DNA of 11,252 bases from Anaerolineales bacterium (GTDB taxonomy: Bacteria > Chloroflexota > Anaerolineae > Anaerolineales > DRMV01). Position numbers and translations under genes: made by a program. Every line of letters starts with the position of its first letter. The first letter of the stretch is position 1. Below, in pieces: positions 4,121 through 11,252 of the stretch. The notes under the pieces are model-generated. The model saw only the letters and a program-made list of their open reading frames with translations. It searched no databases and was not told the DNA's origin. Where the stretch lies: positions 1 to 11,252 of the forward strand of contig WFVP01000122.1 in assembly GCA_015491595.1 (NCBI GenBank). The letters run 5' to 3'.

Positions 4121-6114
4121 GATGCACCTCGGGCTTTACGACCGGCTTCTTCCATTTCGATGAAGAGCATGAACAGGTCTTCCAGGGAAAGGGAAACGGG
4201 CCGGATGGGACCGGCCAACAGGCCCAGGGGGTGGAGGGCCCGTTCCACGGCCTCTTGGCCGGCCTCGGCCTCCCATACCAGAACGTGCAATTTGTCGCCG
4301 AAGATGCTGGTCTGGATGACTTCGGAAAGTCCTTCCAAAGGTGCGAGGGCGGCTAAGGGGTCCCGAACAGGCACCTCGATCAGGGAGCCCAACTTCATAT
4401 TGGCCCGTAATTGGGCCGGACTGCCCAGGGCGATGAGGCGTCCTCGGTAGATGAGGCCCAGGCGGTGGCAGTGTTCCGCTTCGTCCATGTAATGGGTGGT
4501 CACGAACACCGTGGTTCCCTGCGCGGCCAGGGCGAAAATCAGGTCCCAGAATTCCCGACGGGAGACGGGATCCACACCGCTGGTGGGTTCGTCCAGGAAG
4601 AGGACCTGAGGGTCGTGAAGGATGGCGCAGCCTAAGGCCAGGCGCTGTTTCCATCCGCCGGAGAGGTCCCGGGTCAGTAAGTGTTCTTTGCCCACCAGGC
4701 CGGCCATTTCCAGTACCCAGCGGCGCCGTTCCTGAAACCGCCGTGGAGGAAGGTCGTACACGTCGCCGTAGAAGCGGATGTTTTCCTCTACGGTGAGGTC
4801 GTTGTAGAGGGAAAACTTCTGAGACATGTAGCCGATGTGGGGCTTCATGCGGCCGCGTTCGCGCACCACGTCAAAGCCCGCGACGGTGGCCCGACCCGCA
4901 GTAGGGGGCAGCAAACCGCACAACATGCGAATGGTTGTGGTCTTGCCCGAACCATTGGGTCCCAGGAAACCGAAAACCTCGCCTTTGCCCACCGTGAAGG
5001 TCACGTTGTCTACGGCCAGAACGGAACCAAAGCGTTTGGTCAGGCCCTCGGCCAGGATGGCCGCCTCCCGGTGGCCGTTTCGGTCGGGCTCCTCTTCGGG
5101 AAGGGGGATGATAGGACGACGCACGTCCTCGGCCGCGCGCAACTCTTCGATGGCCGCGATGAAGACGTCCTCCAGGCTGGGCTTGGTGATTTCCATGTGG
5201 GTCACGGTGATGCCGGCTTGGGCCAGGCGCTGGGGGAGGTTGCGGGCCAGGGCCTCCCCATCCCGCAGCAGGAGGTGAAGGCGTTCGCCGAAAACCTGCA
5301 CCTGGGTCACGCCGGGGATTTCTCGCAGGCGGGCCACCGCGCGCGTTTGGGGATGGGCCACTATATCCACGGCCACGCCGTGAATCATCCCTTTGAGCGC
5401 TTCGGGGGCGTCCATGGCGATGATTTCCCCCCGCCGCATGAGGGCTACCCGATGGCAGCGTTCCGCCTCGTCCATATAAGGCGTGGTGACGAAGATGGTG
5501 ATGCCCTCGGCCAGGAACTCATACAACAACTTCCAGAACTCTTGTCGGGAAACGGGGTCCACGCCAGTGGTGGGCTCGTCCAGGAAGAGGATTTGGGGCT
5601 GGTGGATGAGGGTGCAGGCCAGGGCCAGTTTCTTCTTCATGCCACCGGAGAGGTGCTCGGCGCGACGGCTACGGGCCTCTTCCAGGCGGGCAAAGCGCAG
5701 AAGGCGCTCCTTGCGTTCCACAGCCACTTCGGGGGGCACCTTGTAGAGCTGGGCGAAGAAGTCCAGGTTCTCCTCCACCGTCAGGGAGCCGTACAGGGTG
5801 AACCCTTCGGACATGTAGCCCACCCTGCCGCCCCGGGCCTCGGGGTCGCGCACCACATCCACCCCCGCGACGGTGGCCTCGCCCGCGGTGGGGGTGAGGA
5901 GGCCACACAACATCTGGATGGTGGTGGTTTTCCCCGCGCCGTCGGGGCCGACGAGGCCGAAAATCTCACCAGGATAAACATCAAAGCTCACCCCACGTAC
6001 AGCCTCCATGGGCCCTCGCCGCGTCCGGTACACTTTGCGCAGGTCCCGGACCCGGATCATGGGTTCTGGAAGATGGGCGCTTGTCCGGCGGGTTTGGGTT
6101 GTGGTCAACATCAT
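4117..6114 (-). CDS. ABC exporter ATP-binding protein with two fused NBDs (YbhF-like)
   Basis: A 665-residue protein carrying two complete ABC ATPase domains. NBD1 has Walker A GPDGAGKT (56-63), signature LSGGM (155-159) and Walker B with catalytic Glu180 (ILFLDEPTTGVDP). NBD2 has Walker A GPNGSGKT (385-392), LSGGW (484-488), Glu509 and the H-switch THYMDEAE (His541). NBD1 is unusual: the Q-loop reads GYMSEG (Glu103 instead of Gln) and the H-switch reads TTPYMDEAE (Pro212 instead of His). The frame stays open upstream to 6297, but that part overlaps the HMA gene and is low in ABC homology. The ATG at 6114, or the adjacent one at 6111, lies four bases after the HMA stop and is the best start; no strong Shine-Dalgarno is seen, so coupling is likely. 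It energises the two downstream permeases. Confidence 0.93.
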   Translation of the reverse strand: MMLTTTQTRRTSAHLPEPMIRVRDLRKVYRTRRGPMEAVRGVSFDVYPGEIFGLVGPDGAGKTTTIQMLCGLLTPTAGEATVAGVDVVRDPEARGGRVGYMSEGFTLYGSLTVEENLDFFAQLYKVPPEVAVERKERLLRFARLEEARSRRAEHLSGGMKKKLALACTLIHQPQILFLDEPTTGVDPVSRQEFWKLLYEFLAEGITIFVTTPYMDEAERCHRVALMRRGEIIAMDAPEALKGMIHGVAVDIVAHPQTRAVARLREIPGVTQVQVFGERLHLLLRDGEALARNLPQRLAQAGITVTHMEITKPSLEDVFIAAIEELRAAEDVRRPIIPLPEEEPDRNGHREAAILAEGLTKRFGSVLAVDNVTFTVGKGEVFGFLGPNGSGKTTTIRMLCGLLPPTAGRATVAGFDVVRERGRMKPHIGYMSQKFSLYNDLTVEENIRFYGDVYDLPPRRFQERRRWVLEMAGLVGKEHLLTRDLSGGWKQRLALGCAILHDPQVLFLDEPTSGVDPVSRREFWDLIFALAAQGTTVFVTTHYMDEAEHCHRLGLIYRGRLIALGSPAQLRANMKLGSLIEVPVRDPLAALAPLEGLSEVIQTSIFGDKLHVLVWEAEAGQEAVERALHPLGLLAGPIRPVSLSLEDLFMLFIEMEEAGRKARGAS

Positions 6115-6118
6115 GGCC

Positions 6119-6463
6119 CTACGATTCCCAGACCTCGTCGCTGAGGGCTTCCTGGGCCGGCATGATGGCCACGACGCGTGCCCAGTAGTGATGGCGTCCA
6201 TCGTTCCCGGCTTGGGCGACGGCCTGCACCAGGTCGTTGGGGGAGACCTGGTCGGGGTCGTAGGCCGCGGCGGCCATTTGATGCTCGAGATAGACACTGG
6301 CCAGGTGGACGCCTTCCAGGCGCAGGAGCGCGTTTTGCACCCGCATCGCGCATCGGGGACATCCCATGCCGCCCACGGCCAGATAGGCCACCATGGACTG
6401 GCGCAGAGCGTCCATGTCTACCGGCTTTTCGAAGGGTTCCACATGGCAGTTGTGGTGTTCCAT
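6119..6463 (-). CDS. Small heavy-metal-associated (HMA) domain protein, CopZ/MerP-like
   Basis: A 114-residue soluble protein. The core (about 24-90) fits an HMA fold: GMGCPRC (32-38), with Cys35 and Cys38 as the metal-binding pair, then MRVQNALLRLEGVHLASVYLE and a DLVQAVAQAG helix. Free-standing HMA proteins bind Cu(I), Zn(II), Hg(II) or similar ions and hand them to transporters or regulators. Two additions are unusual: the N-terminus begins MEHHNCH, a His/Cys cluster that could form another metal site, and a 25-residue tail follows HHYW (91-94). The start has a very strong ribosome binding site, AAAGGAGGTG, five bases before the ATG. It directly precedes the exporter ATPase (4-bp gap), which suggests the exporter works with metals or metal complexes. 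The metal is unknown. Confidence 0.85.
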   Translation of the reverse strand: MEHHNCHVEPFEKPVDMDALRQSMVAYLAVGGMGCPRCAMRVQNALLRLEGVHLASVYLEHQMAAAAYDPDQVSPNDLVQAVAQAGNDGRHHYWARVVAIMPAQEALSDEVWES

Positions 6464-6488
6464 GATGCACCTCCTTTAGGTTTGGTGT

Positions 6489-6512
6489 GGGACGAACCGC
6501 CTTCGGGTTCCC
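6489..6512. other. Imperfect hairpin in the leader of the HMA gene
   Basis: GGGACGAACC (6489-6498) pairs with GGTTCCC (6506-6512) around a GCCTTCG-containing loop, with a 3-nt bulge. It sits between the orphan RMMBL reading frame and the strong HMA ribosome binding site. No T-run follows on the minus strand, so it does not look like an intrinsic terminator. It may be an mRNA processing or stabilising structure, or chance. Confidence 0.25.
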
Positions 6513-6530
6513 AAGCGGCTTGTAACAAGT

Positions 6531-6761
6531 TCAGGACGTCGCCGTCAAGACGGCACTTTGGCCTATCTCTGGCGCCTGAGCCTTCCAACCCCACGTCTGC
6601 AGGGTTTGGGCCAGGCCGTGGGCGGCTTCGGGCTCACCGTGGACGACGAAGGTGTCCCTGGGCGGGGGCGAAAGGGCTGAGAGCCAAACGTAAGGGTCCA
6701 GGAACTCATGCTGTGCTTTCTCCCAGGGTAAAGGCCGGGGATTGGGGTTGCTCTCCATCAT
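6531..6761 (-). CDS. Orphan RMMBL-like domain (C-terminus of a beta-CASP metallo-hydrolase)
   Basis: A 76-residue reading frame. Residues 38-72, beginning FVVHGEPEAAHGLAQTLQ and ending APEIGQSAVL, closely resemble the RNA-specificity (RMMBL) segment at the C-terminus of metallo-beta-lactamase/beta-CASP RNases, where the His in VVHGE is a conserved element. The catalytic lactamase and beta-CASP domains are absent: the upstream sequence is occupied by the FAD reductase, whose 3' end overlaps this frame by 56 bp. No good ribosome binding site precedes the ATG at 6761, so translation would depend on coupling to the reductase. It may be a small stand-alone protein or the relic of a larger gene cut by rearrangement. 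The first 30 residues are unrelated to RMMBL and overlap the neighbour's code. Confidence 0.5.
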   Translation of the reverse strand: MMESNPNPRPLPWEKAQHEFLDPYVWLSALSPPPRDTFVVHGEPEAAHGLAQTLQTWGWKAQAPEIGQSAVLTATS

Positions 6762-7800
6762 CCAGCGCGAACGCGGCGAAGTAGCGGCGCAGGGTTCGGC
6801 GGTAGACGCTGGGCCGGGTCCCCAAAGCCATGAAGATTTGCAAAACCGATAGCGGAAGGCGCGGGAGTAAGCGCTGCAGGCGGTACAGCAGGTCGTAGGC
6901 CTTTTTATATCGCAGGACCAAGCGCCGGTAGCGTTCCCGCGTCTGGTCCAACGAGAGCTCCCCTTCCAGGTGCCGCCGCAGCAGACGCCCCAGTTGGGTG
7001 CCGAAGTACAGCGCCGGGCGGATGCCTTCTCCGGTCAGGGGAAGGCACTGCCCCGCGGCATCCCCCACCAGGAAGAGGTGCTCCAGAACTGGGTCCCGCA
7101 AGCGGTAGGTAAAGTAACCGCCGTGGACCTTGCGCCGGGCCTGGCCCAGGTCGGCCAGGTACAGGTCCAGGAGGCGCAGGGTGCCCTGGGTTTCGCCCTC
7201 GTACCGACCGATACCGATGCGACTCGCGCCGTTGATGGGAAAAATCCAGGCAATGCTTAACCGCCCCAGGCGTTTGGGGTCGTAGGTGAAGTGCAGGCCC
7301 TCATCGGCATAGGGCACCGTACTCTCCAGACCGAAGTTGACGGCCTGCCCCTGAACCCAATCCGGGCGCAGACTGGAAGCCAGGACCGCTCGCCAACCGC
7401 TGGCGTCCACGATGACCCGTCCCTCGTACTCGCCCTTGGGCGTGCGTACCCGCTGACCTTCGACTCCCAGGGCCGGGGCTTCCACGAAATCCGCGGTGGC
7501 GCGTTCCCACAGGAGGCGACAGAGTTTCTCGTAATCGAAGGTGCAATAAGGGTATTGGGGTACCGGGTAGACAAAGGAGCGTTCTGGAGTGTGCAGGATG
7601 AGGGCGTCGTGGATTTGCAAAACCGCGTCTTCCAGGTTCAACGCCTTAAGGGTGGCCAAGGGAACACCACAAGCCGAGGTTTGTCCTGCGCCAATGGGCT
7701 GGTGGTCAATGACCAACACGCGTCTTCCCCGGAGATGAGCCGCCACAGCCAATCCTGCAAAACTGGCCCCGGCAATGATGACATCGTACGCATACGTCAT
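6706..7800 (-). CDS. FAD-dependent oxidoreductase, geranylgeranyl reductase family-like
   Basis: A 364-residue flavoprotein. The N-terminal Rossmann motif is GASFAG (11-16), following VIIA, with Asp32 at the end of beta-2 for the ADP-ribose. The second FAD motif is VGDAAGQCLPLTGEGI (245-260), characteristic of the p-hydroxybenzoate hydroxylase/geranylgeranyl reductase fold. VDASG (131-135) is the middle conserved element. Relatives reduce isoprenoid double bonds in lipids, quinones or chlorophyll side chains, or act as hydroxylases or halogenases; the substrate here is not known. The start ATG at 7800 has GAGGAGG about ten bases upstream. It begins 47 bp after the copA terminator and is probably the first gene of the second transcription unit. 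Its end overlaps the orphan RMMBL frame. Confidence 0.88.
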   Translation of the reverse strand: MTYAYDVIIAGASFAGLAVAAHLRGRRVLVIDHQPIGAGQTSACGVPLATLKALNLEDAVLQIHDALILHTPERSFVYPVPQYPYCTFDYEKLCRLLWERATADFVEAPALGVEGQRVRTPKGEYEGRVIVDASGWRAVLASSLRPDWVQGQAVNFGLESTVPYADEGLHFTYDPKRLGRLSIAWIFPINGASRIGIGRYEGETQGTLRLLDLYLADLGQARRKVHGGYFTYRLRDPVLEHLFLVGDAAGQCLPLTGEGIRPALYFGTQLGRLLRRHLEGELSLDQTRERYRRLVLRYKKAYDLLYRLQRLLPRLPLSVLQIFMALGTRPSVYRRTLRRYFAAFALDDGEQPQSPAFTLGESTA

Positions 7801-7823
7801 GGTTCCCGTTCCTCCTCATGGCT

Positions 7824-7839
7824 CCATCCGGCAGGATGG
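7824..7839. other. Small hairpin in the reductase leader
   Basis: CCATCC (7824-7829) and GGATGG (7834-7839) form a 6-bp stem with a GGCA loop between the copA terminator and the reductase ribosome binding site. No T-run follows it. It might act as a secondary structure element next to the terminator; the function is unknown. Confidence 0.3.
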
Positions 7840-7842
7840 TTG

Positions 7843-7877
7843 AAAAAAGCGGGGTGGACCTTGCGCCCACCCCGCTT
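7843..7877 (-). terminator. Rho-independent terminator after copA
   Basis: AAGCGGGGTGG (7847-7857) and its exact complement CCACCCCGCTT (7867-7877) make an 11-bp, GC-rich stem with a 9-nt loop. Read on the minus strand it is followed at once by a T-run (from the A-run 7843-7848). It starts 13 bp past the copA stop codon. This is a textbook intrinsic terminator and separates the copper-ATPase transcript from the reductase/exporter operon. Confidence 0.9.
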
Positions 7878-7889
7878 CACCTTACCCCT

Positions 7890-10418
7890 TCAGGCCGTGG
7901 CCTCGGAGGTTCGGCCGGAAAGTTGGGCCTGGGACCGGTCTTCGGTCTTCATATAGGAGGGTCGAATGTCGACTTTCCGGAGTCGGTTGGCGTTGGTGAC
8001 CACGGTGATGGAACTGGTGGCCATGGCGATTTCCGCCAGTACCGGGTGCATCCAACCGATGATGGCCAGGGGAATCATGGCCACGTTGTAGAAGAAGGCC
8101 CAGAAGAGGTTCTGCTTGATTTTGCGGAAGGTGGCCCGGCTCAGGTTGATGGCCTCCACAACGCCGCTCAGGTGTCCGCGCACCAGGATGACGTCGCTGG
8201 CCTCGATGGCGATGTCCGTACCGGTGCCGATGGCGATACCCACGTTGGACTGGGTGAGGGCAGGTGCGTCGTTGATGCCGTCGCCCACGAAGGCCACCAT
8301 CCCAAATTGCTCCTGCATCTTCTTCACCTCGGCCACTTTACCGTCGGGCAACACTTCTGCCAGCACGTAATCGATGCCTACCTTGCGGGCGATGGCTTCC
8401 GCGGTGCGGCGGTTGTCGCCCGTGATCATGGCCGTCTTCAGACCCATGCGGTGGAGTTCCTGGATGGCCAGAACCGAGTCATCCTTGAGGGTGTCGGCTA
8501 CCGCGATGACGCCCGCCAACTGACCGTTGATGGCGACCAGCATGGCCGTTTTGGCCTCTTCCTCCAGGCCCCGCATTTGATCTTCGGCCGGCGCCGGGTC
8601 AATGCCGTGTTCCTGCATCAACCGCCGTGAACCTACCAGGACGGTCGCGTCTCCTACTTTTGCAATCACGCCCTTGCCGCGTATGGCCTGGAAATCCTGG
8701 GGGTCCTCCAGAGCCAATGCTTCCCCTTCGGCCCGTTCCACGATGGCGCGGCCCAGGGGGTGTTCGCTCCCTCGCTCAGCCGAGGCGGCCAGACGGAGGA
8801 CCTCTTCGACTGTAAAGCCATTGAGCGGGACGACATCGGTAACTTCCGGCTTACCCTTGGTGATGGTGCCCGTCTTGTCGAAGATGATGACCTGTACGTC
8901 CTTCAAGGTCTGAATGGCCTCGCCGCTGCGAATCAAGATGCCGTGCTCCGCGCCCAGTCCGCTGCCTACCATCAGAGCTGTGGGCGTGGCCAAGCCCAGC
9001 GCGCAGGGGCAGGCGATGACCAGCACGGCGACGGTCGAGACCACCGCCAGGGTAATTACGCCCAAAGTGGGGTCAACCCAGGGCAGGAAGGAGCCCAGTT
9101 CCACCAGGCGGCGCATGGTGTCCGGGAAGACAAGCCAGGCTACAAAGGTGAGGATGGCAATGGTGATGATGATGGGCACGAACACAGCCGTAACTTTGTC
9201 AGCGAATTCCTGGATTGGAACTTTGGTGCCCTGGGCTTCTTCCACCAACTTGATGACCTGGGCCAGGAAAGTGTCCTTGCCCACCCGCGTGGCCCGTACC
9301 TTTAACAGACCGTCTTGGTTGATGGTGGCACCGATGACCTCATCGCCCGGGCGTTTGTTCACCGGCATGGATTCGCCCGTGGCCATCGATTCGTCGACCG
9401 CGCTCTCGCCTTCGATGACCACACCGTCGGTGGGAATCTTCTCGCCGGGGCGCACAATCATGATGTCGCCCACCTGGACTTCTTCAATGGGAATTTCGAT
9501 TTCCTTGCCGTCCCGAATCACCCGGGCCGTTTTGGCTCCCAGTTCCAACAACTTGCGTATGGCCTGGGAGGCCCGGCCCTTCGCGGTCTCTTCCACGTAC
9601 CGGCCGGTCAAGTGAAAGGCCATGATCATGGCCGCGACACCGGCATAGTTGGCCACGGGGAAGAAGAAGGATGCCGGTCCGGTAAGCAGAGCCACGCCCG
9701 TACCCAAGGCAATCAAGGTGTCCATGTTGGCATAGCCTTTGAGCACGGGTTTGAGACCGTTGCGGTAGGTGTGACGGCCAACCCAGAAGAGGACGGGGAG
9801 GGCGAGTACGATGAGGCCCAGGTTATAAATGGTTTCGTTAGGCCAGTAGACCCCCCAGAACATCTCGGGGAGCATCCACAAGATGATGGGCAGGGTAAAG
9901 GCCCAGGCAACGCGCATGCGGAAGCGGGCTTCGCGCATCTTGCGTTCGGCCTCGTCTTCCTCTTCTTCGGTCTGGGCAGCCCCTTGGGCTTCCGATTTAG
10001 CCTCCAGAACCTCGTAGCCCGCATCGGCCACGGCCTTCTTGAAGTCGGCCAAGGTAGCCAGGCCTGGAATGTAAGTAACCGTGGCTTTCTCCGTTGCCAA
10101 ATTCACATTGGCGTCCAGGACGCCGAAGACTTTCTTTAACGCACGGGTGACATGGCTGGCGCAAGAAGCGCACGTCATCCCCCCGATGGGCAGGGTGATG
10201 GTTTCCGTTGCCACGTCGTATCCGGCGTCTCGGACGGCTTCGACCAGGTCTTGTAAGGACACCGAGCCGTTCGCAAGGACCACCGTGGCCTTTTCGGTGG
10301 CCAGGTTGACCTGAACGTCGGCCACGCCGGAGACCTTCTTCAAAGCCCGGGTGATGTGGCTGGCGCAAGAAGCGCACGTCATACCTTGAATGGGAAGCAC
10401 AATCTTTTGTGCGCTCAT
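7890..10418 (-). CDS. copA: Cu(I)-exporting P1B-type ATPase CopA
   Basis: An 842-residue P-type ATPase that pumps Cu(I) out of the cytosol. Two N-terminal HMA domains carry GMTCASC at 12-18 and 80-86. The membrane metal site CPC (470-472, in [15 protein letters not shown]), Tyr777-Asn778 and the MATSS motif (799-803) match the Cu(I)-selective P1B-1 class. TGES is at 347-350, the phosphorylated Asp514 is in DKTGT, the nucleotide-binding His553-Pro554 is in SEHPLG, and GDGINDAP is at 712-719. Length and domain order are normal. The two HMA domains are unusually alike, including ASH(I/V)TRALKKV and [10 protein letters not shown], which points to a fairly recent internal duplication. The ATG at 10418 has AGGAGGTG upstream. 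It lies 160 bp after the glutaredoxin gene and is closed by a strong terminator. Confidence 0.97.
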
Positions 10419-10441
10419 GTTTCGTCACCTCCTGGAAGGAT

Positions 10442-10459
10442 GGGGATGGTGCCATCCCC
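10442..10459. other. Perfect short hairpin in the copA leader
   Basis: GGGGATGG (10442-10449) and CCATCCCC (10452-10459) are exact complements separated by two bases. The structure ends about 20 bp upstream of the copA ribosome binding site. It is followed upstream by a second hairpin, CCCGG-TTTT-CCGGG (10465-10478). On the minus-strand mRNA the two would stack just before the Shine-Dalgarno. A role in copA translation or as a protein-binding site is inference. Confidence 0.45.
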
Positions 10460-10464
10460 TTGCA

Positions 10465-10478
10465 CCCGGTTTTCCGGG
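10465..10478. other. Second short hairpin in the copA leader
   Basis: CCCGG (10465-10469), loop TTTT, CCGGG (10474-10478). In the copA mRNA the loop would be AAAA. It lies five bases from the neighbouring GGGGATGG hairpin. No U-run follows in the minus-strand transcript, so it is not an intrinsic terminator. Confidence 0.35.
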
Positions 10479-10487
10479 GCACTCTCC

Positions 10488-10493
10488 AGTATA
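10488..10493 (-). promoter_or_regulatory. Candidate -10 element for copA
   Basis: TATACT on the minus strand, one base from the sigma-70 consensus, 70 bp upstream of the copA start. No convincing -35 is found at 16-18 nt or at the 19-20 nt spacing used by MerR-type activators. The region upstream is C/G-rich. The same TATACTGG string occurs in the candidate promoter at the left edge. copA could instead be read through from the glutaredoxin gene. Confidence 0.3.
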
Positions 10494-10521
10494 GTTTCTC
10501 GAACCCGGGGCCGGGAGCGCC

Positions 10522-10539
10522 ATTCCCTATAAGGGGAAT
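10522..10539. promoter_or_regulatory. Candidate operator palindrome upstream of copA
   Basis: ATTCCC (10522-10527) and GGGAAT (10534-10539) form an inverted repeat with a 6-bp A/T-rich spacer. It sits 29 bp upstream of the candidate copA -10. C-tract/G-tract palindromes with a short spacer resemble the general form of CsoR-type copper-repressor operators, but this one does not match a published site that I can recall exactly. No regulator gene is in the window. Confidence 0.3.
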
Positions 10540-10578
10540 AGGCCATTTGGCGGATACGCTCGTAGGAACGAAGGAAGA

Positions 10579-10863
10579 TTACAGGTAGCCGCCTTTACGC
10601 AAGGCTTGTTGAATCGCCCCCAAGTTCATTCCAAACCCGATGAACACCTGTCCGTCAATGACCAACGTCGGCGTGATAAAACGTCCCGCCACTTCCTTTA
10701 GTTCATCCATATAAGAGGGGTTGGTGGTGACGTCTTTCTCTGTATAAGGGATGCCGTGTTCAGCGAAGAACCTCTTCGCCATCTGACAGTCGCTTCAAGT
10801 GGGTTGTGTGTAAATCACAATCCCTCTGGTTTTTCTGCGGCCGCGAAAGACGAACGGAACCAT
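10579..10863 (-). CDS. Glutaredoxin-like selenoprotein (UxxC), read through TGA
   Basis: A 94-residue glutaredoxin-fold protein. Reading from ATG 10863, the frame gives VIYTQPT, then TGA (10795-10797), then SDCQMAKRFF, where the TGA occupies the first Cys of the CxxC redox motif (position 23, with Cys26 intact). The rest is a normal glutaredoxin: the cis-Pro element ITPTLVIDG (63-71), FIGFG (75-79) and a final helix ending ALRKGGYL. GGAGG lies nine bases before the ATG. A perfect hairpin starts 15 nt after the TGA. Sequence similarity thus continues on both sides of the stop, which favours selenocysteine over a dead gene. A caller without Sec support would report only 67 residues from the Met at 10782, lacking the redox site. 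Family members reduce disulfides or mixed disulfides; here it may serve copper/redox balance beside copA. A point-mutation pseudogene remains possible. Confidence 0.8.
10763..10794 (-). promoter_or_regulatory. Candidate bacterial SECIS element
   Basis: On the minus strand, GCGAAGA-GGT-TCTTCGC (10779 to 10763) is a perfect 7-bp stem with a GGU loop, extendable by two G-U pairs. There are 22 nt between the TGA and the loop. Bacterial SECIS elements lie inside the coding region just after the UGA, with a small apical loop having G among its first bases, about 16-37 nt downstream; this hairpin fits. SelB binding is inferred. Confidence 0.7.
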
Positions 10864-10920
10864 GAGGAAGCACCTCCATTGGAAAATCCCTTTGATATCG
10901 CGTCACAAAGGTATATGGCT

Positions 10921-10949
10921 ATTGTACTCGGAAGACTTTCTGCTTTGCA
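10921..10949 (-). promoter_or_regulatory. Candidate promoter of the glutaredoxin/copA unit
   Basis: TACAAT (10921-10926) is a good -10 hexamer on the minus strand, with a 17-nt spacer to TGCAAA (10944-10949), a weak -35. The start of transcription would be near 10914, about 50 bp upstream of the glutaredoxin ATG. A 6-bp inverted repeat (CCTTTG 10889-10894, CAAAGG 10906-10911) lies just downstream of the predicted start and could be an operator. The right repeat element begins immediately upstream. Confidence 0.35.
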
Positions 10950-10957
10950 GTAGGCTA

Positions 10958-11252
10958 TTTGAACAGGGTGCATGCAGATGTTGCCGAAATCAGCTGGTCC
11001 TTTATGGACCGAAAGTTTGGACCACCTCTGCAGGCGGGCCTTTTCCTTTTGGAACGCACGGGTCTGTCTGGGTCCGGGACCTCGGATGAAGAGAGAGATA
11101 ATGCAGCAAGCGGCGAAGCCGCTTGCTGCATTATCTCTTCTTTGCTCCTGCGGTCCAGGGCCTGGACAGTCCTGTGCGAAACGCTGGGTGCCTTTCCAAA
11201 GCGGCACCATCTTTTCTCCCACTTCGGCAACTTTTGAGTGCACCTTTTGAAC
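10958..11252. repeat. Large imperfect palindrome, MITE-like, with flanking 7-bp direct repeats
   Basis: This block has no credible gene. Its centre is a perfect 21-bp inverted repeat (11094-11114 with 11118-11138) around a GAA loop. Outside it, 11055-11081 matches the reverse complement of 11152-11178 at 21 of 27 positions, and 10967-10988 matches that of 11223-11244 at 18 of 22 (both contain GTTGCCGAA). The arms differ in length: 148 and 127 bp. TTTGAAC flanks both ends as a direct repeat (10958-10964 and 11246-11252), like a target-site duplication around a 281-bp element (10965-11245). No transposase is encoded, so it would be non-autonomous. I cannot assign an IS family. It could also be a structured RNA or a hairpin-type intergenic repeat. 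The reading frames crossing it on both strands are mirror images caused by the palindrome. Confidence 0.75.
11094..11138. repeat. Perfect 21-bp central stem of the palindrome
   Basis: The left arm 11094-11114 (AGAGATAATGCAGC... to GGC) and right arm 11118-11138 are exactly complementary, with GAA between them. A further G-T pair extends it. A stem this long and perfect is able to extrude as a cruciform or to fold in RNA. No T-run follows on either strand to make it a standard terminator. Confidence 0.95.

Follow-up and report, generated by a model that had tools for sequence, protein, structure and literature searches.

The stretch of DNA analyzed here (the window, 11,252 nt) is a whole contig of a 2.08-Mb MAG that comprises 450 contigs and is 81% complete with 2.9% contamination. 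Near one end, on the minus strand, it carries a small glutaredoxin-like gene with a TGA codon in frame and, downstream of it, a gene for a metal-transporting ATPase. The features that concern us are as follows.

10873..10877, minus strand: GGAGG, likely ribosome-binding site, 9 nt upstream of the ATG
10579..10863, minus strand: predicted selenocysteine (Sec)-glutaredoxin gene, 94 aa, ATG start, TAA stop, codon-23 TGA read as Sec
10795..10797, minus strand: in-frame TGA, predicted Sec23, the U of the UxxC redox motif
10786..10788, minus strand: TGT, Cys26, second UxxC position (28 of the 29 distinct Sec loci have Cys here; L081 has Ser)
10763..10779, minus strand: hairpin GCGAAGA-GGU-UCUUCGC, predicted as a bacterial SECIS element, with its apical GGU loop at 10772-10770 and 22 nt from UGA to loop
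7890..10418, minus strand: CopA-type heavy-metal P-type ATPase, 842 aa, with two HMA stretches

Read from 10863 to 10579 on the minus strand, the frame contains exactly one in-frame TGA, at codon 23 (10797-10795), and is otherwise open. The TGA occupies the codon of the first Cys of the glutaredoxin CxxC motif, in the context VIYTQPT-U-SDC-QMAKRFF. The original prediction had described a single 94-residue frame running from an ATG with a GGAGG to a normal stop, and re-deriving the coordinates on the minus strand reproduced it, with TAA as the stop. It had also placed the TGA on the redox-active Cys of a U-S-D-C motif, where the second Cys is indeed encoded by the TGT at 10788-10786. The observed frame, and the position of the codon-23 TGA at the glutaredoxin Cys, are therefore confirmed as real. 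With Cys written for Sec, the translation scores 63.3 bits against Pfam PF00462 (gathering cut-off 22.9), in keeping with the proposed glutaredoxin identity.

An ordinary ORF call covers only the 67-aa part 3′ of the TGA, which bears out the expectation that gene callers would truncate, and so hide, the gene. In a protein-database search, 38 of 40 matches, the window's own among them, start 3′ of the Sec position; gene calling thus loses the redox half of this protein group. The remaining two matches are P0032, with an intact CxxC, and P0005, a JGI homologue with W at the Sec position. P0005 may have been called under a code in which TGA means Trp (code 4 or similar), which would speak for a reassignment of TGA to Trp in the organism studied here. 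However, TGA terminates five of the eight neighboring genes in the window (for one of the eight, perm2, the coordinates lack a start codon and only its stop, TAG, was used), so it has not simply been turned into a sense codon. In addition, Trp in place of the redox Cys would destroy the motif, and the genome contains tRNA-Sec, SelA, SelB and SelD, as described below. Recoding to Trp was rejected on the use of TGA as an ordinary stop, and we regard it as barely credible.

A late ORF start alone is no proof of a Sec-coding TGA, and for this reason we compared the DNA of homologues. Examination of close homologues, proposed as a check at the outset, found TGA at the homologous codon in all 15 loci from named genomes, 12 from Chloroflexota and 3 from Nitrospirota. 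Across 396 genomes of the same class, 68 give matches at 1e-10 or below; the best 22 of these 68, window included, all contain a TGA, which lies at codon 23 in all 20 that were checked, and the next-best matches are the Cys forms L085 and L086. Several of the 22 are the same records as among the 15 named-genome loci. After collapsing loci with the same 54 nt from codon 23 onward, there were 29 distinct Sec loci, from Chloroflexota and Nitrospirota, that share the TGA codon, 34 distinct homologues with TGC or TGT in its place, and one other (L094). Further frame damage in relatives had been named as grounds for refutation; it is absent from most of them but present in two of the 22 TGA matches, which have one extra stop each, a second TGA in G090 and a TAG in G064 (the same locus as L083).

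Selection on the frame was compared in 14 chosen Sec loci. At codon positions 1/2/3 these differ pairwise by 0.151/0.056/0.508 over the 9 codons 5′ of the TGA and by 0.244/0.159/0.514 over the 72 codons from the TGA on, and this third-position excess on both sides of the TGA indicates that the two halves are read in one frame. These comparisons bear on the reading in which the TGA is a true stop, so that either the gene is a Cys-glutaredoxin in decay or the product is no more than a 67-aa fragment that begins at a Met after the TGA. That fragment is what the ordinary ORF covers, L083 has its additional TAG, and at 1e-12 the Sec-glutaredoxin was found in none of 17 other genomes of the same family (3 of the same genus and 14 others). 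Yet a TGA at the same codon recurs in 29 distinct loci, the nine codons before it are constrained in the frame of the downstream codons, and the fragment would be without the first strand of the structural model and the redox motif. A pseudogene was rejected given the conserved TGA and the same-frame constraint on both of its sides, and a true stop of either kind is very unlikely.

We also built a tree with the Sec/Cys column masked, using 76 columns and merging identical protein rows to leave 29 Sec rows (L052 in, L090 out); many of its forks are unresolved. In this tree 28 of the 29 Sec rows group with L093 (Cys) and L094 (neither), with support of 97/77, and the window row lies inside a nearly all-Sec group, while L089 (Sec) falls among Cys rows. 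Counting L094 with the Cys group, the Sec/Cys state needs 3 changes on the tree compared with 20.7-20.8 when shuffled.

The relatives yielded some observations of their own. Within genus g36 (L088, L089, L090), the corresponding codon of another glutaredoxin encodes Cys in one species and is TGA in two others, a pattern that we read as a recent Sec/Cys switch. There, a SECIS-like hairpin is strong in the TGA forms only (-10.0 vs -1.6 kcal/mol), and in L090 a TAA was also counted within the matched stretch. Five distinct loci carry Sec-glutaredoxins in tandem, with a second type (YTQ[PS]GU.FCG.VKEFLS) just upstream of the first, at 2741 in L059, 1246 (minus) in L073, 1002 in L076, 1233 (minus) in L081 and 1248 in L083. 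L081 is also a UxxS Sec homologue, with Ser replacing the second Cys.

For bacterial SECIS elements, the review PMC13188914 gives limits of 3-9 nt for the loop, which has G in its first two positions, 4-16 bp for the upper stem, 16-37 nt for the spacing and at most -7.5 kcal/mol for the energy. A SECIS predictor had been suggested as a check, and the hairpin predicted after the window TGA lies within these limits: its loop is GGU, its spacing is 22 nt and its 23-nt core has an energy of -10.1 kcal/mol. The stem has 7 pairs (8 in the fold, 9 by scan). The scan finds stems of 6 pairs or more whose loop has G in its first two positions in 29 of 29 Sec loci (median 8; in L081 and L087 the longest such stem sits at another loop), whereas the 34 Cys loci have a median stem of 4.5 pairs and only six of them have 6 or 7. 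Mean core energy is -9.5 kcal/mol in the 29 Sec loci, where 24 cores reach -7.5 kcal/mol and five are weaker, against -4.0 kcal/mol in the 34 Cys loci; since Sec and Cys loci mostly belong to different subfamilies, relatedness confounds these hairpin comparisons as well as the CopA comparison made below.

Covariation was assessed on 24 of the 29 Sec rows, L062-L064, L089 and L090 being excluded for a one-base shift of their hairpin. In this alignment 96.4% of 168 pair cells are paired, and cells with a double change number 7 against 2.0 in shuffles, a count reached by 0 of 500 shuffles. The pair formed by two third codon positions is G-C in 16 loci, A-U in 6, G-U in 2 and unpaired in none. Two of the five covariation measures are weak (463 of 500 shuffles reach the observed value for 'further pair types' and 21 of 500 that for double-change pairs), and sliding the alignment by -2 gives a covariation score of 0.134 compared with 0.146 in place. 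Much of the helix never varies because the protein (AK[RS]FFA) also fixes the sequence. Taken over 60 nt from the third base past the UGA, the RNA has no unusual stability (z -0.03). Among 10,000 synonymous codings of the window gene, 5.0% attain the observed core energy and 0.59% the observed stem length; when the same codon usage, taken from six window genes, was applied to every locus, fewer than 5% of codings reach the core energy in 19 of 29 Sec loci and 5% or more do so in the other 10, with L081, L082 and L084 exceeding 10%. The hairpin thus shows some covariation, and Sec homologues have a far more stable core than Cys homologues. We propose that this structure, which starts 15 nt after the UGA, would serve to deliver SelB-bound Sec-tRNA to codon 23, and that upon incorporation of Sec there translation would continue to the TAA.

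The genome was expected to carry the Sec machinery, and all four components are present above their cut-offs: tRNA-Sec on contig C128 (80.6 bits, cut-off 47; called SeC with anticodon tca by ARAGORN), SelB on C438 (352.6 bits, cut-off 242.25), SelA on C420 (552.6 bits, cut-off 267.9) and SelD on C145 (334.8 bits, cut-off 125). The tRNA-Sec cut-off is not strict, as a tRNA-Ser of the same genome also passes it with 49.1 bits. Across 14 control genomes, the searches for tRNA-Sec, SelB and SelD gave a match in all, over the cut-off in 5, 2 and 2 respectively, and the SelA search gave a match in 4, over the cut-off in 1. The selD gene has its own in-frame TGA in the context AKCAGU, a common Sec site in SelD. 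Contig C260 ends in another N-terminal selD stretch that is nearly identical to the first (L115, L116).

Together, the conserved TGA, the Sec machinery and the SECIS-type hairpin 3′ of the TGA support the original prediction of a functional selenoprotein. Judged from sequence, we put the probability that the gene encodes a functional Sec-containing glutaredoxin-fold oxidoreductase at about 0.93, and we infer that Sec is inserted in the cell. A sequencing error, or a misbinned contig for which this Sec machinery would be irrelevant, is conceivable in a MAG of this fragmentation and contamination, the more so as the gene lies near a contig end and is missing from other genomes of the same family. 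The same-genus MAG G001 shares 3904 nt of the window (5372-9275) in a stretch without the Sec gene; the shared stretch stops short of that gene because the G001 contig ends there, inside the ATPase. The identity of this stretch, 98.9%, nevertheless matches that of selA between the two genomes (98.5%), parts of a repeat near the contig end recur elsewhere in the genome, and an identical TGA is found in other assemblies. Misbinning was rejected for these reasons, and error or misbinning is highly improbable.

The repeat in question, at 10967-11244, is bounded by imperfect inverted repeats of 22 nt (82%), encloses a perfect 21-nt palindrome at 11094-11138, and looks like a dispersed miniature element. 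Parts of it recur in three stretches among 57.7 kb of the genome, two of them clear and one weak (E 0.009). An Rfam search of 10400-11252 returned five matches, all under the gathering score, three over the palindrome and two over the gene (sR15 and drum; E 1.2 and 4).

Within the family, selA is over the cut-off in 5 of 15 genomes searched, with a partial match at a contig end in G003. G003 keeps the ATPase at 79.7% DNA identity with a different upstream gene, which by eye is acyl-CoA dehydrogenase-like. Loss or transfer within the class would best fit the sporadic presence of the Sec gene. In viral contigs, 18 stretches fit a pattern and none was confirmed.

An AlphaFold2 model with Cys for Sec has glutaredoxin topology (E-H-E-H-E-E-H) with a mean pLDDT of 86.7 and a pTM of 0.75. 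Glutaredoxin-type folds have a Pro ahead of the third strand; the predicted model has both this Pro and a CxxC-type site, and P65 is invariant across 26 rows. The profile matches solved glutaredoxins and NrdH-redoxins, the best being 7c10_A (7.8e-20). In the UxxC site the predicted nucleophile is Sec23, the resolving residue would be Cys26, and the protein likely takes part in thiol or metal-thiolate redox chemistry. Glutathione synthetase (GshB) is over the cut-off in 0 of 25 genomes (this one and 24 relatives, several of the 25 incomplete), with one weak match in G025. By this search for GshB, glutathione would be an unlikely reductant, and reduction is probably by a thioredoxin-reductase-type enzyme.

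Downstream, the next minus-strand gene is that of the CopA-type ATPase, 160 nt past the stop of the Sec-glutaredoxin gene. A CopA-like ATPase is present within 1.5 kb at 9 of 29 Sec loci vs 1 of 34 Cys loci (Fisher p 0.004, which is optimistic because the comparison was made post hoc among related loci). A CopA-like frame is found directly 3′ of the Sec gene in all three Nitrospirota loci (L062-L064), several Chloroflexota loci have a CopA-like ATPase close to the Sec gene, and L087 also carries a cupredoxin-like gene. This neighborhood suggests, but does not prove, a link of the Sec-glutaredoxin to copper handling, which we hold tentatively and at somewhat under even odds. The protein may keep the CxxC motifs of neighboring CopA and HMA proteins reduced. 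Alternatively, a genuine selenoprotein could use its Sec in general disulfide or peroxide metabolism, with adjacency to a copper pump being incidental. Consistent with this, 20 of the 29 Sec loci have no CopA within 1.5 kb, and the 20 neighboring proteins scanned are varied, with rhodanese, cytochrome c, sigma factor and response regulator among the matches and seven without a family; the repeated adjacency in Nitrospirota and Chloroflexota, and the cupredoxin-like gene, speak against it. We give incidental adjacency an even chance. A more specific proposal is a dedicated copper branch in glutathione-free bacteria, in which the UxxC site would reduce the CxxC of the CopA HMA domains or pass on Cu(I) via its selenolate, and this we consider unlikely. 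If it were true, CopA adjacency in both Chloroflexota and Nitrospirota would reflect a shared copper role. The subgroup offers a concrete test case for whether Sec serves copper homeostasis.

According to PMC1794560, PMC9312934 and PMC13188914, Sec glutaredoxins with a UxxC site are an established selenoprotein family, and the window protein is therefore a new member; PMC1794560 lists Sec-glutaredoxins for Geobacter sulfurreducens, Alkaliphilus metalliredigenes and Moorella thermoacetica. In the open-access literature on Sec-glutaredoxins, Chloroflexota selenoproteins and copper, as far as its text was accessible, we found no paper on this subgroup or on a link between Sec-glutaredoxin and CopA. 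For each of the 16 NCBIfam families listed, the window protein falls under the cut-off, and the proteins of relatives tested (two from L059, one from L063) are likewise under theirs. The best NCBIfam score, 64.0 bits, is to YruB (TIGR02196), short of its cut-off of 88.55. NrdH (TIGR02194), whose structures match the profile, has a cut-off of 85.75 that is also not reached, and the window protein has Sec where YruB and NrdH have Cys. Uxx-star (NF041212) likewise comprises small glutaredoxin-like selenoproteins, and the window protein scores 63.5 bits, below its cut-off of 66. The window protein is UxxC, in contrast to the UxxT given for family 1 and the GxGU given for family 2 in PMC13188914. 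Like the published Sec-glutaredoxins (PF00462), as these are described, it is a glutaredoxin-family protein with Sec at the first position of UxxC. Compared by those descriptions, its subgroup differs in having mostly QPTU[SAG]DC, in occurring in Chloroflexota and Nitrospirota, and in lying partly by CopA. What is new here is thus a Chloroflexota-centered subgroup of Sec-glutaredoxins, also present in Nitrospirota, and its partial link to CopA.
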